Made by a program: the position numbers and the translations under genes. A model generated the notes under the pieces. It searched no databases. It had not been told where the DNA came from and saw only the letters and a program-made list of their open reading frames with translations. Shown here piece after piece: positions 3,835-37,452 of a stretch of DNA of 39,858 bases. The DNA comes from Methylococcales bacterium (lineage in GTDB: Bacteria > Pseudomonadota > Gammaproteobacteria > Methylococcales > Methylomonadaceae): assembly GCA_026399095.1 (NCBI GenBank), contig JAPLRP010000078.1:1-39858 (forward strand). The letters are read 5' to 3'. Each line of letters begins with the position of its first letter. The first letter of the stretch is position 1.

Positions 3835-4254
3835 AACACCAAATCCTCACAAGCAGAGTATTTTGAATACTTAAATAGCTGGTTATCGTTAAATTAAATC
3901 GATATAGCTATTTAATTTCTTTAAAAGCATCAATACGATCAGGTACTTTTAACACCAGATCAGAAAACATTAGTATTTGCTGTTAACAATTTGTTTACTA
4001 ATCATTTCGCAATAGAGTATCAATTAGAAATAATCTTGTCAAAGTATAGTTTAACAAAACATGAACAAAGTATTTCAATAGCATGACAATATTTAAAAAA
4101 ATTTATCACTACAATCCTCTGGCCGCAAAATTAAAAACAAAAAATCATAAAATACAACAAATTATAATGTCTTCCCTCGCCATAAATAAACCACACAGTT
4201 AGCATACAAATACTGTACAAGAACAAACAAAATTTTGTTTTTATTTGAAATATC
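3835..4254. other. AT-rich non-coding region upstream of the sigma factor gene
   Basis: About 420 bases without a convincing gene lie between the divergent sigma factor and arfB. The sequence is rich in A and T and should hold the minus-strand promoter of the sigma gene. I see no strong hairpin, tRNA or repeat in it. Confidence 0.5.
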
Positions 4255-4263
4255 TTGATTGGC

Positions 4264-4482
4264 ATGGTTTTAGTTGCGCTTAAAGCGAATAAAACCATGA
4301 GAAAGAGAGCTGAACAACTACTTGGGAAAAGATTGAATGAATATTTTATTAGCGGTCACCAGCTCAAAAATAATCCATTCAGCAGGCGTTGCATCAATAT
4401 TTTCGACGGACTATTCAAAAAAAAATACTTTTGGCGTTATAACGAAGATAATATCAGGCCCATACCCCAATTATTGATGTAA
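4264..4482 (+). CDS. Doubtful small ORF just upstream of arfB
   Basis: An ATG at 4264 opens a 72-codon basic reading frame (starting MVLVALKANKTMRKRAEQLL) that ends 7 bases before the arfB start. No ribosome binding site is visible and I recognise no family. The tight spacing to arfB is the only support. It may be a short leader gene or simply chance coding. Confidence 0.2.
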   Translation: MVLVALKANKTMRKRAEQLLGKRLNEYFISGHQLKNNPFSRRCINIFDGLFKKKYFWRYNEDNIRPIPQLLM

Positions 4483-4489
4483 CCCAAAA

Positions 4490-4903
4490 ATGTTACTCAT
4501 ATCCAATCAAATTAGTATTCCAGAAACAGAGATCGAAGTTAATGCTATTCGCGCTCAAGGTTCTGGCGGTCAGAATGTTAATAAAGTATCAACGGCAGTT
4601 CACTTACGTTTTGATATTAATGCCTCATCATTACCGGATTTTTACAAAGAAAAGTTACTGACTTTAAAAGACCAACGTATTTCAAAAGAAGGTGTAATTG
4701 TCATTAAAGCACAGCAATATCGTAGCCAGGAAAAGAACAAAGAGGACGCCTATAATCGACTAATAGCTCTAGTAAAAAACGTAGCCTTGGCCTGTAAAAA
4801 GCGTAAAACAACCAAACCAACCAAAGGTTCAAAACTTAAACGTCTCGATGACAAAACCAAGCAAGGAAAAATTAAAGCGTTAAGAGGGAAAGTTGATTTT
4901 TAG
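4490..4903 (+). CDS. arfB: Alternative ribosome-rescue factor ArfB (YaeJ), peptidyl-tRNA hydrolase
   Basis: ArfB frees ribosomes stalled at mRNA ends by hydrolysing the peptidyl-tRNA. It is a back-up to tmRNA. The 137-residue protein carries the catalytic loop RAQGSGGQNVNKVSTAVHLR with the GGQ motif at residues 26-28. It ends in the basic tail (KKRKTTKPTK and then RLDDKTKQGKIKALRGKVDF) that enters the empty mRNA channel. Length and start agree with the E. coli protein. It converges with the minus-strand gene that ends at 4913, leaving only 9 bases between stop codons. Confidence 0.96.
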   Translation: MLLISNQISIPETEIEVNAIRAQGSGGQNVNKVSTAVHLRFDINASSLPDFYKEKLLTLKDQRISKEGVIVIKAQQYRSQEKNKEDAYNRLIALVKNVALACKKRKTTKPTKGSKLKRLDDKTKQGKIKALRGKVDF

Positions 4904-4912
4904 TGACAGCAC

Positions 4913-5404
4913 TTAATTACCTATCTGCATCGCAGACAACTTCATTAGCGTTAGGCTTGCAAGGGCATCTCCGCCACTAATATCAGGAATAATTCGTAAC
5001 TCAAGTGCATTTAACTGCTTAAGATCAACAGTATAATTTTCAAGCTGCCTGATTGTAAGCGGGGGGCTAAAATGATATTGCTGACGCAAAATTTCTTGAA
5101 AAAAATCTTCATTTTCCCTACGCCAAAGCAAAATAAACTCTTGGGTACGAGCCTGTTTATTCTCATCAAACGCAAGGGATATAAATTTAATGACCTGAGG
5201 TTGATCAAAAATAAGCCGTATTGTTTGTTCACCTGAACTGGCCGCCTGCCAACCCGAATTGAAACCACAAACCAAAGCTGATTCAATTGGATATTCCGGA
5301 TTTTCTGAGCTTATTTCTACTTGTGCCAACTTTTCAAGGTCTAAATAATCCAAATCAGAAGAGTGTGAGGATTTTGTAATTTGTTCAATCAATGTTTTAC
5401 GCAT
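4913..5404 (-). CDS. Conserved hypothetical protein, possibly a discoidin/XRCC1-like beta-sandwich
   Basis: A 163-residue soluble protein with no signal peptide. The middle (SGWQAASSGEQTIRLIFDQP, then VIKFISLAFDEN, then EFILLWRREN) has the alternating pattern of a galactose-binding-like beta-sandwich, with phrases typical of discoidin-like domains in cytoplasmic bacterial proteins. The start is supported by an AAAGG site before the ATG. It lies 43 bases downstream of the large SNF2 gene on the same strand, so the two are probably co-transcribed. The function is unknown, and the domain assignment rests on pattern recognition only. Confidence 0.7.
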   Translation of the reverse strand: MRKTLIEQITKSSHSSDLDYLDLEKLAQVEISSENPEYPIESALVCGFNSGWQAASSGEQTIRLIFDQPQVIKFISLAFDENKQARTQEFILLWRRENEDFFQEILRQQYHFSPPLTIRQLENYTVDLKQLNALELRIIPDISGGDALASLTLMKLSAMQIGN

Positions 5405-33671: not shown

Positions 33672-33811
33672 CTGAAGTTTCCCAGTTTCTAAAAACCTTT
33701 ATCCCGCTACTTATCTGGGTATTTAATGTAGGGTTTGCTACGATTATGGCAAACTCCACTTTAATAAGTTTTCCCTTATAGGCTAATGACTCAAGAACTG
33801 GGAAACTTCAC
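33672..33811. mobile_element. MITE-like element with 16-bp terminal inverted repeats
   Basis: A 140-bp segment begins TGAAGTTTCCCAGTTT (33673-33688) and ends GAACTGGGAAACTTCA (33795-33810). The ends are inverted repeats matching at 15 of 16 bases. It is flanked by 7-base direct repeats CATTGGT at 33665-33671 and 33812-33818, the mark of a target duplication. It contains no open frame of useful size, but has an inner inverted repeat GTTTGC/GCAAAC. Such elements are moved by the transposase of a related full-size element, which I do not see in this window. Confidence 0.75.
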
Positions 33812-33830
33812 CATTGGTTAAACAAATAGT

Positions 33831-34055
33831 TTATGTATGCGCAAGAAAAACTCGCTCAATGATATTATCCGGTAAGTTAATACGATCAAACGCAGTTACA
33901 GGATAAAGATAGTCTTCACCAGATTCATCAATAACTCTAATTTGACCATGCTTTTTTGCATCGGCATCAGCGACTATCTCATAGAGTTTACGCATTTCCA
34001 GTGATACTTCGTAGCCATGGTTATCGACACAGACAACAAATTCGTGTGTATTCAT
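33831..34055 (-). CDS. Conserved small hypothetical protein
   Basis: A 74-residue protein with a core (YEVSLEMRKLYEIVADADA, then IRVIDESGEDYLYP) that I recall from many small bacterial proteins of unknown role. It has no signal peptide or membrane segment. Its ATG lies 2 bases after the stop of the upstream reading frame, so the pair was translationally coupled. That upstream partner is now frameshifted. The MITE-like element ends 20 bases past its stop codon. No function can be assigned. Confidence 0.7.
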   Translation of the reverse strand: MNTHEFVVCVDNHGYEVSLEMRKLYEIVADADAKKHGQIRVIDESGEDYLYPVTAFDRINLPDNIIERVFLAHT

Positions 34056-34057
34056 AG

Positions 34058-34293
34058 TTATATATCCAAATAACGCTTAATTTTAAACTCGCACTTTCCA
34101 ATGCCATTAGCTTCATACCAGTGAAGCTCTGCATCGCGAAGCGTCCCATCACTCAAACGAACATAGCGAAACCTTTACGCTTACGCCAGTTACCCAGACC
34201 ATGAACTTTCCTAAGACGTGGCAACTCTCTGATAGCAGAGCCACGAGCAAAAGTCTCAGTTTGTCTGATTTTACCAATTATTTCAAAGTCCAT
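34058..34293 (-). pseudogene. Frameshifted small conserved gene, partner of the 74-residue protein gene
   Basis: The frame from the ATG at 34291-34293 reads MDFEIIGKIRQTETFARGSA and on to GLGNWRKRKGF, then stops early at 34153. In the adjacent frame the family's second half continues (YVRLSDGTLRDAELHWYEAN, then GIGKCEFKIKRYLDI) to a stop at 34058-34060. Loss of one base near 34160-34172 explains this. The repaired product would be about 78 residues, a type I recall as a small protein of unknown function that often sits next to the gene downstream. Confidence 0.75.
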
Positions 34294-34427
34294 TTCCTGA
34301 TTCTAGCACGACTGACTCTATCTAGCTAAAGATAAGGCCAAGCCAAGCAATAACAAGTCTATGTATTGATTGTCCGGGGGTAGTTAGAGTTAATGAGCGC
34401 ACTTGTGCCGCATATCAACAGCTTAGA

Positions 34428-37171
34428 TTAGTGCATAAGCCAGCCTTTTAAGCCTTTGCTGCCCTTAAAATTATCAATATCTTTCTCGCCAGATAACAAA
34501 AGCTGTAATAAAGACTTGTTTTGAAACCGGCAGGTCTGTGTAACACTTAGGAGTCTCAAATAATGGGGAGTTGTTTCTTTACCAAAGGTTCCTGAAATCT
34601 TTCTTTGAACTGCCAAATGTCGGATTGCCCTCTCAGCTGCATTATTATTCCAAGGTATGCCATCAATATCGATAAAAACAAATAGTTTTTCACGGTATTT
34701 TATGAATCGTTTTTGAAAAGTCTGTGTAGTATCTGATGTGTAGACGTTGTCATTAATGAATTTCTCATAAAAGCTATCAACATTTAATTTGAACTTACGT
34801 AAATGCCTTGTTTTTAAGCCATATTTTTCAACGGCCTGTAGGATAGGGGTGATTAGTTCTCCAACTGCACAGACGAAATTTTCATATTCTTTATCAAAAG
34901 GTGATTTGCGGAGATTCTCGTTTAAATCGCGAATCAAATGTGCCCAACATTTTTGCTGTAAACAAGGAACTGAATCATAACCGCCGTAGAAATCCGAGCA
35001 AAGAACCCCAGCATAGCCATTCAGCAACTCATGAACTATTGTCGATTCTCTATTTTCAGTTAGTTTGAAAATTACATGTGTTCCGTCTGTGATTACCCAA
35101 ACGTATTGCGAAGCTCCAACGATATTAATAGTGGTTTCATCCATATGAATAACTGGGCTATTCAGAATACGTTCAAGCAACATTTTTTCTGTATCTTTGT
35201 AAAAACCAGAAAAACTTACAATTTGACTTTGTATAGTTGATTCGTTAATGTATTCTCCAAAACTATCCTCAACTAATTGGGCAATTTTATTGAAAGGTAG
35301 GCGCATAGGTAATCTGTGATAGCTTACCCATGCTATAAAGCCATGTCCATACATGGTTCCTGCGCCAAGCTTTCGAATTTGTGGCGGACTAAATGAATGT
35401 TTGCATGCTGTGCAACGGCCTTTCTTGCCTATGTACTTGGTAATATCTTTCTTGACTCCTCTTGATGTAAATTTCAAATCAAATATTGTTTGGGATGCTT
35501 CAATCTGGGTAGGCTTAAGTTTTCTTCCTGGATGATTCGGGCACGTCCTACCTCGTCTAACTTGATTAATCTTATTGACTTTTCTACCTTGTGAAATAAG
35601 CCGTTTCTTCTTATTGTCGCCACTATCATCAGTAGATGTGGTTACATCTTCCTTATTTTTAAGCCTAATTTTCTTTTGCTCATAAGTTCCGTGAGCCGAA
35701 AGTAAAATATTCGACAACTGTTTTGAGAGATTAGACGCCGATTCTGGCATGGAACCACCTTCCTTATCAGCAAACCTAACATGTTCAGAATGTGAGCCGT
35801 CAGCAGCGATCAGCCTGAGATGCTCTGTTAGTCCTTTAAAATTTAGACAATCTTCAAGGTTATTGGTTTGCAGCAACTCCCGATAACAATTTTCTTTACT
35901 TTGATCGTATTCGTGTCGCCAAACTATGGATTGCAAACCTGTTGCGTTGGGTGAACTCCAGGATAAACCCAAATAATTACAAATATCCTTCAAACCATTC
36001 GAATAGACAGGAAAATATATTTTTCCATAAATGCAAGTATTGATGTTTAAGAGTCTTTCAATTATTGTTTTGGTTGGTGTGCCATATCTTTCCCCAAGCT
36101 TTAAAATTGCTTTGCTTTCAAAGCTGCCATAATGAAACAAGGGAGAGCTACCGTACTGTTCAATAACAGAAATAAAATCATTCCATGCTGATTCTTCGTC
36201 ATTTTTTGTAACCGCCCAAAATTGATTATTAACTTGTTTATCTGCTTGATAAACAACGGTTCCAAATAAATAGAAAAAGCTTTCATTCGGAATGCATTCA
36301 AAATCGATAAATATTTCAACTTCATGCTTTGGGATTTCAGTGGTTTTATCCTGAATATAAATATTCCCGGTTCTTATTGCGAGCGCTTGAAGCTCATATT
36401 TGTGGGCAACATGTTCCTGACGTGAACGTCGCCCCCTTTTGCGAGTGCGATAAAGATATAAAAGCTGCTTGACTGTGAAAATGCCTTTTTTTTCGAACTT
36501 TAAGATTTGTTTTTTATTCATTCTACCAAGCAGAAAAAGACTGTCTTCCTGAATGGCAGTCTCTTTACAACTATTTTGAAATTCGCAATAAGGACAATGT
36601 TTATTTAAAAAGACAGGAGGTAAACCGCTATTTTGTGTTAACCAATCTTGAAGTAAAGTAATGCTGGGTTGGCATTTTTTATATTCTCAGATAATTTGAC
36701 TGTTATGGTTCTACCATCTACTAAAATGACATGTCCATTGTCAGGCAAGTAATTCAGGAGCTTTGAAAGTGTATATCCAATAAATGAAAGTTCGATTTTA
36801 TCCTCTTGTCCAATTTTATTTGCACTAGAAAAAATAATGGGTTCTTAGCGTGACTCATCTAGTGGCAGTTTATTTGGCACCTTAATTAGCGTTGCGTTTC
36901 TTTCGGATAAGCAATCAACTGACAAATTAGCGCAGGTCAGTATATCAACGCCTTTCGAAATTGCTAAAGGAGAGAATGATTCAACGACTAATTGATTGGA
37001 GCTTGAGTGAAAATAATTCTGGCGGGTCATGTTGCTTAATTCACTTTGCATATTTTCATAGGCATTTGGTGAGCTTAAGTTAGGAGAAAAAATCAATAAA
37101 TAGGCTTTTCGCAAGCACAAATTATATCCGCGTATCGCGCGTTCAGAAACTTGTAAGTCATTTTTAATCAT
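34428..37171 (-). pseudogene. TM0106-type RecB-like nuclease fused to an IS66-type transposase, N-terminal half broken
   Basis: One ancestral gene of about 914 codons. Its start (from 37171, ending LPLDES at 36848) and the segment IIFSSANKIGQEDKIELSFI match the TM0106 RecB-like nuclease family. So does the cysteine cluster LNKHCPYCEFQNSC (about 36563-36608). A TAA at 36845-36847 and a one-base loss near 36678-36690 break this half. The last 697 codons (from 36521) are intact. They hold an RNase-H-like exonuclease domain at 70-235 with FIDFE and NLEDC, a possible zinc ribbon (C327, C370, C373), and an IS66-type DDE domain with Asp461 (HMDET), Asp510 (SDFYGGYD) and Glu630 (NNNAAERAIRHLAVQRKISG). 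IS66 accessory genes (tnpA, tnpB) are absent, and I found no terminal repeats. Related fusions exist in my memory of cyanobacterial proteins, which I could not check. Confidence 0.85.
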
Positions 37172-37236: not shown

Positions 37237-37452
37237 CTAATTTATAAAGTATAAAATTGTATTATCCGTTATTTCTCTAAAACCGACTGACTGCTTTCCG
37301 TGAGACTGCTGCCAGATTAAAAATCTGGGATCAATGACAACTTTGGGTCGTTTGTACTCCTTCACTTTTGACAGAGCAAGTTGTGCCATCAAGAGTAATT
37401 CACCAACGGCAGCTTTATCGCGATCAATAGGGTAGCTTTGGATGATGAACAT
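37237..37452 (-). CDS. Small hypothetical protein
   Basis: A 71-codon frame (MFIIQSYPIDRDKAAVGELL at the start, VVIDPRFLIWQQSHGKQ near the end). I recognise no family. The composition looks protein-like rather than random, but only a weak GAAG lies before the ATG. It sits between the broken nuclease-transposase gene and the frmA promoter, and may be a fragment of an older gene. Confidence 0.35.
   Translation of the reverse strand: MFIIQSYPIDRDKAAVGELLLMAQLALSKVKEYKRPKVVIDPRFLIWQQSHGKQSVGFREITDNTILYFIN

Follow-up and report, generated by a model that had tools for sequence, protein, structure and literature searches.

The fusion gene and its decayed copy in the window

The window, the whole stretch of 39,858 nucleotides that was analysed, is one entire contig of a Methylococcales bacterium genome (2.77 Mb, 94 contigs), and at 34428-37171 on its minus strand it carries a single gene in which a TM0106/Cas4-like domain and a DEDDy RNase-H-like domain precede an IS66 DDE transposase. 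The features of the locus are listed below; L026 denotes the Nitrosomonas homologue.

34428..37171, minus strand: decayed fusion gene, whole, delimited by tblastn of the intact 918-aa L026 protein in two frames
36659..37171, minus strand: N-terminal RecB/Cas4-like piece with one in-frame stop, then a frame change (TIGR03491 positions 3-173, E 9.2e-5)
36567..36596, minus strand: C-terminal cysteine triad, CPYCEFQNSC, of the Cas4-like domain, its columns conserved in 12 of 12 sequences including the window
35817..36314, minus strand: the DEDDy exonuclease-like domain, matched by RNase_H_2 (PF13482, E 3.5e-18) over residues 70-235 in the 697-aa ORF
35408..35550 (approximate limits), minus strand: C..H/C...CxxC finger ahead of the DDE domain, read from the sequence and presumably the IS66 zinc finger
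34572..35357, minus strand: DDE_Tnp_IS66 domain (PF03050, NF033517) with D461, D510 and E630 in 697-aa ORF numbering
33802..34427, minus strand: 3' flank common to the window, L024 and L028 (blastn and alignment), with the distal ORF at 33831-34055

The 751-codon open frame at 34428-36683 (minus strand) matched the second part of TIGR03491 (E 2.6e-45, profile positions 186-458 of 462), Pfam RNase_H_2 (E ~4e-18, positions 1-164 of 165) and the IS66 transposase profile NF033517 (E 1.2e-60 to 1.4e-60, over the cut-off), and DDE_Tnp_IS66 was matched in the window at E 6.8e-41 to 6.9e-40, also over its cut-off. These profiles bear out the first-pass annotation, made from the letters alone, in its reading of RecB-like, RNase-H-like and IS66 parts within one gene; its placement of D461, D510, E630 and the RNase-H-like region at residues 70-235 is correct in the ATG-started 697-aa ORF (34428-36521, minus strand), and the Cas4-type cysteine cluster that it reported is present as the CPYCEF...C triad. 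When L026 was aligned to the window by tblastn, its residues 5-175 fell at 37171-36659, with 63% identity across one in-frame stop, and its residues 169-918 at 36680-34431 (79% identity), and a TIGR03491 search of the whole genome returned two pieces at this locus with one TAA. The N-terminal Cys of the Cas4-like domain lies in the other, upstream-frame piece, the four finger columns are Cys or His/Cys in 12 of 12 sequences including the window, and the Tyr of DEDDy motif III is replaced by Asn in the window copy. Owing to the in-frame stop, the frame change and the loss of this Tyr, the window copy is a decayed, dead gene.

Upstream of the fusion gene, a 71-aa ORF at 37237-37452 has no NCBIfam match, and the DNA around it has many short matches elsewhere in genomes of the genus. 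Downstream, the window, L024 and L028 have ~620 bp in common with two small co-oriented ORFs, which at L024:2408-2871 encode 78 and 74 aa and match no NCBIfam family; the window copy of the 74-aa ORF has no Pfam match. The position of these ORFs is that at which other loci carry toxin genes, and the two may constitute an unknown pair.

Homologues, conserved residues and ancestry

Scanning 84,980 species genomes by pattern, which detects close relatives only, returned five fusion loci. Intact fusions of 918 and 917 aa are encoded by Nitrosomonas supralitoralis (L026) and a Methyloligella MAG (L025), a 915-aa fusion by a unicellular cyanobacterium, and fragments by a Bacteroidales MAG (at a contig end) and a Methylobacter MAG (L028). 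Among plasmid records, those of Calothrix PCC 7716 (p4) and Acaryochloris marina (pREC4) each have an intact fusion and one of Aulosira has a short remnant, in keeping with the cyanobacterial fusions that the first-pass annotation had mentioned; the two intact plasmid copies are annotated as 'transposase IS66, putative' and 'TM0106 family RecB-like putative nuclease', each of which names one half. In all, 11 intact homologues (L025, L026, L027, L029, L030 and L050-L055; 897-956 aa, 30-86% identical) were obtained from cyanobacteria and proteobacteria, two of them on plasmids, and a twelfth fusion, L114, reaches the end of its contig before any stop. The profile matches of L050 and L051 include or pass the terminal stop, both being open over 911 and 897 aa, respectively; L054 was read from a codon later than its listed TTG start, and L025 starts with GTG. 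L028 and L032, which are fragments, and L024, which is cut at a contig end, are not counted as intact. Since uninterrupted one-frame homologues exist elsewhere, the fusion is not a product of chance.

With a fusion profile (A3) at a cut-off of E <= 1e-60, matches were obtained in 2 of 386 genomes of the unicellular cyanobacterium's phylum, 2 of 369 of the window's class, 2 of 398 of its phylum, 1 of 200 of the order of the Nitrosomonas genome and 4 of 195 of the order of G238; these counts include the starting genomes, come from overlapping samples and are lower bounds, as 2-4 candidates were scored per genome in the large samples. The suggestion that the architecture may be widespread consequently holds for taxonomic breadth and fails for frequency (1-4 genomes per 195-398 sampled). 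Viral contigs yielded no fusion and two distant TM0106-like loci. A single fusion copy was present per genome, except for one genome with two that are 48% identical, and near-identical copies within one genome were not seen. Decayed copies are represented by the window, L028, L032 and L111; at the last (L111:5916-5966) a related genome retains, at the same site and adjoined by the same two genes, no more than 17 codons from the start of the fusion, and this remnant is an old, mostly deleted copy.

In the NCBIfam scan, which covered ten intact fusions (L052 and L114 being left out), both domains share one frame in all ten. TIGR03491 was matched over its cut-off (97.45 bits) in each, from position 1-4 to 458-462 of 462, and NF033517 was also matched in each, reaching position 379-381 of 387, over the cut-off in six and at 147-179 bits, as against 180, in the other four. 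The N-terminal Cys and C-terminal Cys triad of the Cas4-like domain, the DEDDy acidic residues and Tyr (motif II being E or D), the finger columns (one being H or C) and the D, D, E of the IS66 domain are conserved in 11 of 11 intact fusions and also in L114. The DEDDy motifs are DxE, an acidic motif II and Yx3D, and the catalytic motif of PD-(D/E)XK nucleases is D/E-x-K. The D and K of the latter are absent from all 12 homologues (11 intact and L114), for which reason the nucleases, in the plural, with which the transposase had been credited are not supported and the DEDDy domain is probably the sole active nuclease of the fusion, as judged from conserved residues. This loss is not peculiar to the fusion, as only 2 of 30 cyanobacterial standalone TM0106 proteins keep D/E-x-K, as do 2 of 3 other comparators (the three include the cyanobacterial SU3 protein, itself one of the 30). 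Resemblance of the N-terminal domain to Cas4 is weak: the best matches to PADLOC Cas4 models were at E 4e-9 to 1e-5 in the four fusions scanned, NCBIfam cas4 was listed for 2 of 10 fusions at ~20 bits versus a cut-off of 65, and the best PDB sequence match of the fusion profile was Cas4 (4r5q) at E 0.014, a single-sequence PDB search giving no match at 0.1.

A structure model of the full-length 918-aa protein had a pLDDT of 37.6 and was set aside. A model of the 468 N-terminal residues, built with seven sequences, reached block-mean pLDDT values of 74-95 over L026 residues 281-460, which correspond to the RNase-H part; before residue 281 confidence was low, and the N-terminal domain is without a credible model. 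In a Foldseek search of the PDB with the exonuclease model the top two matches were DnaQ domains of Streptococcus thermophilus DGCC 7710 (E 0.016 and 0.026, probability 1.00 and 0.99), followed by RNase HI, and nothing was matched at E <= 0.001. The RNase-H-like fold predicted for the middle domain is thus upheld by the model and its nearest PDB neighbour; we take this DnaQ to be the one linked to CRISPR Cas2.

In an IS66 tree the 13 fusion rows are split by a branch from 15 ordinary IS66 proteins (SH-aLRT 99), and in a TM0106 tree they are split from 32 unfused TM0106 proteins (SH-aLRT 100); both are quick trees with limited sampling and flagged long branches, L024 is a row in each, and the IS66 tree omits L019 and L020, which are too short, and L016, L021 and L023. 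Four subgroups are common to the two trees (L030/L054; L052/L053; L029/L051; window/L024/L025/L026), which is what joint travel of the two halves would produce; L027, L050 and L055 are placed differently between the two trees. A counting script gave dN/dS values of 0.10-0.23 in four parts of the gene (Cas4-like, RNase-H, linker and IS66) for the pairs L025/L026 and L052/L053, and of 0.12-0.19 in three parts for L030/L054, in whose fourth part dS was saturated, so that 11 of 12 region comparisons were measurable. Horizontal spread is suggested by the 79-86% identity among window-type proteins from records of alpha-, beta- and gammaproteobacteria. Because both halves stand apart from their unfused relatives and dN/dS lies at 0.10-0.23, sequence comparison indicates that the fusion is old, selected and horizontally spread.

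Element ends and neighbouring genes

The IS66 family is characterized by terminal inverted repeats, usually GTAA..., and an 8-bp target duplication. A scan for inverted repeats of at least 14/18 flanked by 8-bp duplications with at most one mismatch detected ends at 5 of 16 ordinary IS66 loci (four starting with GTAA; at most 0.2 matches per shuffle) as compared to none of the 12 fusion loci, the window among them (two-sided p 0.053), and a shorter scan (11/14 inverted repeat, exact duplication) was positive at 6 of 16 versus 0 of 12 (two-sided p 0.024). In the full sets such ends were present at 0 of 13 fusion loci and at 5 and 6 of 20 ordinary ones, respectively (one-sided p, calculated by hand, 0.065 and 0.035), the controls L008, L016, L021 and L023 having been added later, all negative, with a weakening of the contrast. 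The contrast is no more than suggestive, to be read with the scan's frequent misses, which are evident from the 5-6 of 20 ordinary loci at which ends were found, and with the flanks of less than 1.5 kb on one side of L050, L114, L025, L051 and L052. Comparison of flanks, which the first-pass annotation had proposed as a way to define ends and target duplications, defined none at the fusion loci. By contrast, the other IS66 copy of the window genome, L002 (G000:C17:72250-73068), one of the five positives of the first scan, has clear inverted ends GTAACTACTC and a perfect 8-bp duplication GATATAAC.

L025 (1226-5067) and L026 (4344-8194) have 3.84 kb in common at 85% within unlike surroundings, a unit in which a PIN-domain toxin/antitoxin-like pair accompanies the fusion gene and which has a weak 15-bp inverted motif near both ends (GGCCAAAAGCGGACG / GGCCCAAAGCAGACG in L026). 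At L026:8197-8348 a perfect 20-bp inverted repeat, its arms 112 bp apart, begins at the end of the L025 homology and looks like a small transposon remnant. No clean empty site was found among frmA-side relatives of the window, on Acaryochloris pMB06 or in the genus of G558, where the comparisons gave variable regions or the 17-codon L111 remnant, and no tRNA, as a potential target, was present in the 12 loci scanned. No TnpA/TnpB-like gene was seen among the ORFs beside the window fusion, where the two neighbouring ORFs have no NCBIfam match, or among the neighbour ORFs of the fusion loci and the first 25 of 36 Pfam families listed for them. The apparent absence of these helpers had been taken as a sign of an unusual insertion mode; it is not distinctive, because the ISBst12 group of IS66 also has a single ORF and lacks TnpA/TnpB (PMC12898284).

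A main rival of the reading preferred below, and only a little less likely, is that the gene is an ordinary single-ORF ISBst12-like IS66 element with an accessory nuclease, its ends being unlike those scanned for or lying beyond the flanks in hand. Six of ten fusions exceed the curated NF033517 cut-off, scan misses are common, several fusion flanks are short and the L025/L026 unit has its inverted motif, all of which would suit such an element; the lack of any positive among 13 fusion loci, and the absence of near-identical copies in any genome seen (the one genome with two copies having them at 48% identity), argue against it.

A toxin or restriction gene lies within ~1.5 kb of the fusion at 7 of 12 loci (7 of 11 before L114, on whose single usable flank no toxin gene is evident by eye). 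PIN_2 adjoins L025 and L026, PIN L030, Fic L027, PemK L051 and YhaV with PrlF L054, and at L055 the fusion gene shares ~10 bp at its end with a co-oriented ORF (4104-5066) for a XamI-type restriction endonuclease, after which comes an Eco57I-type methylase. The intervening gaps are 24-201 bp, apart from 726 bp with an RF-1-domain gene at L054. One further ORF in the neighbour set of the 11 fusions matches a Tse2-type toxin family, and a Schlafen AlbA_2 gene adjoins L053. At L054:9625-12363, ~1.9 kb past the fusion 5' end and with a resolvase between, there are homologues of DISARM DrmB and DrmC. No toxin or restriction family occurred among the first 25 of 32 families at 17 ordinary IS66 loci (L016, L021 and L023 omitted), where one ORF had a DruA domain, among the first 25 of 60 at 30 standalone TM0106 loci, or among the first 25 of 44 for 67 farther ORFs on nine fusion contigs, a set that lists PLDc_2 and includes the DrmC of L054; toxin families beyond those listed are possible in these controls. 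In the control analysis (A5) 3 of 72 ORFs, the transposase frames themselves, were left out. The association, which was noticed post hoc and includes the related L025 and L026, gave p 2.8e-4 for 7 of 11 versus 0 of 17, p 7e-4 for 6 of 10 versus 0 of 17 and p 5e-4 for 7 of 12.

Such neighbours, together with the lack of recognisable element ends and the low copy number, would be compatible with a domesticated, non-transposing gene that processes DNA in defence or plasmid maintenance near toxin-antitoxin, restriction-modification or DISARM-like genes: PIN, Fic, PemK, YhaV/PrlF or XamI stand close by in seven of 11 loci, the XamI gene even overlaps the fusion at L055, DrmB/DrmC are near L054 and AlbA_2 is beside L053. 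We consider domestication, the other main rival, unlikely, as all 12 homologues, intact or open, retain D, D, E and the finger, the IS66 part is under purifying selection in the three pairs tested, the neighbouring modules vary by locus in the manner of cargo, decayed copies (window, L028, L032, L111) occur as they do for mobile genes, PADLOC returned nothing but weak Cas4 matches in the four fusions scanned, and the one usable L114 flank is without a toxin by eye. That two adjacent genes were joined, in this genome alone, through misassembly or a reading that crosses a frameshift, as the stop and frame change of the window copy might suggest, is ruled out to near certainty by other records, which hold 11 one-frame homologues and a twelfth whose frame stays open up to the contig end; in none of these are the halves separate genes.

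A possible trim-and-join mechanism and its relation to known systems

Our tentative preference, held at well under even confidence, is that the fusion is an old, horizontally spreading, single-protein trim-and-join recombinase or transposase of a non-canonical mobile unit without ordinary IS66 ends. In such a protein the Cas4-like domain, its active site gone and its four cysteines kept, would probably bind and orient DNA ends, the DEDDy domain would trim flaps or 3' ends, after which the processed end would be joined to target DNA by the IS66-type DDE domain; the unit moved, now or formerly, would be the compact fusion gene with a toxin or restriction module. The chemistry of these steps and the unit's mobility are our inference, the order and substrates being suggested by the parts and by analogy with the CRISPR trimmer-integrase (PMC10284694). 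Against this reading stand the 0 of 13 loci with ends, the lack of a proven empty site, the mostly single copy per genome, the absence of a Foldseek match at E <= 0.001, the weakness of the 15-bp motif and the differing placement of L027, L050 and L055.

A more specific version, which we regard as distinctly improbable, is that of a trimmer-transposase, the DDE counterpart of the CRISPR trimmer-integrase, in which a dead Cas4-like domain would capture ends, the DEDDy domain would trim them and the DDE domain would insert them; as it would capture, trim and insert, no fixed terminal repeats would be needed, and the varied toxin and restriction modules would be cargo. A precedent for a fused DnaQ-like trimmer and integrase is Cas1-Cas2/DnaQ (PMC10284694), and Cas4-like or DnaQ-like end processing coupled to a DNA integrase is the feature in common with that system and with Cas4-assisted adaptation. 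The integrase of the fusion, in contrast, is a DDE transposase and not Cas1, and no cas1, cas2 or CRISPR array was seen in the neighbour tables of the fusion loci. Nuclease-assisted integration is known from CRISPR adaptation, where the integrase is Cas1; if the trim-and-join reading is true, evolution would have reached a similar arrangement by way of a transposase chemistry that is very common, and if the toxin/restriction association holds, it would suggest how such modules spread.

Like IS66 TnpC and the single-ORF ISBst12 group, the fusion has a cysteine finger followed by a DDE domain in which D, D, E are present. It differs from TnpC in ~450-530 extra N-terminal residues that hold the Cas4-like and DEDDy domains and in the lack of detected inverted ends with an 8-bp duplication, and its identity to ordinary IS66 proteins is ~22-28% in most longer matches. 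The likeness to the TM0106 family (TIGR03491, COG2251; DUF83-like and PF13482) comprises a full-length match, the four cysteines and the DEDDy motifs, whereas TM0106 is standalone in the 30 cyanobacterial loci compared and is here fused to a transposase, with the PD-(D/E)XK D and K missing in 12 of 12 fusions. For COG2251, Majorek et al. 2014 (PMC3985635) predicted a 3'-5' exonuclease activity and noted DUF83 and, often, AAA partners; the portion consulted names no transposase fusion. Searches of the literature for IS66 or another transposase with a TM0106, COG2251, RecB-like or Cas4-like nuclease identified no paper describing the fusion, which agrees with its earlier description as unstudied, and it may represent an unstudied kind of DNA-moving machine. 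As regards the standalone proteins, 28 of the 30 cyanobacterial ones (L056-L085) are without D/E-x-K and retain the DEDDy residues and cysteines, and the TM0106 family was present in 39 of the 79 genomes sampled from the cyanobacterial phylum.
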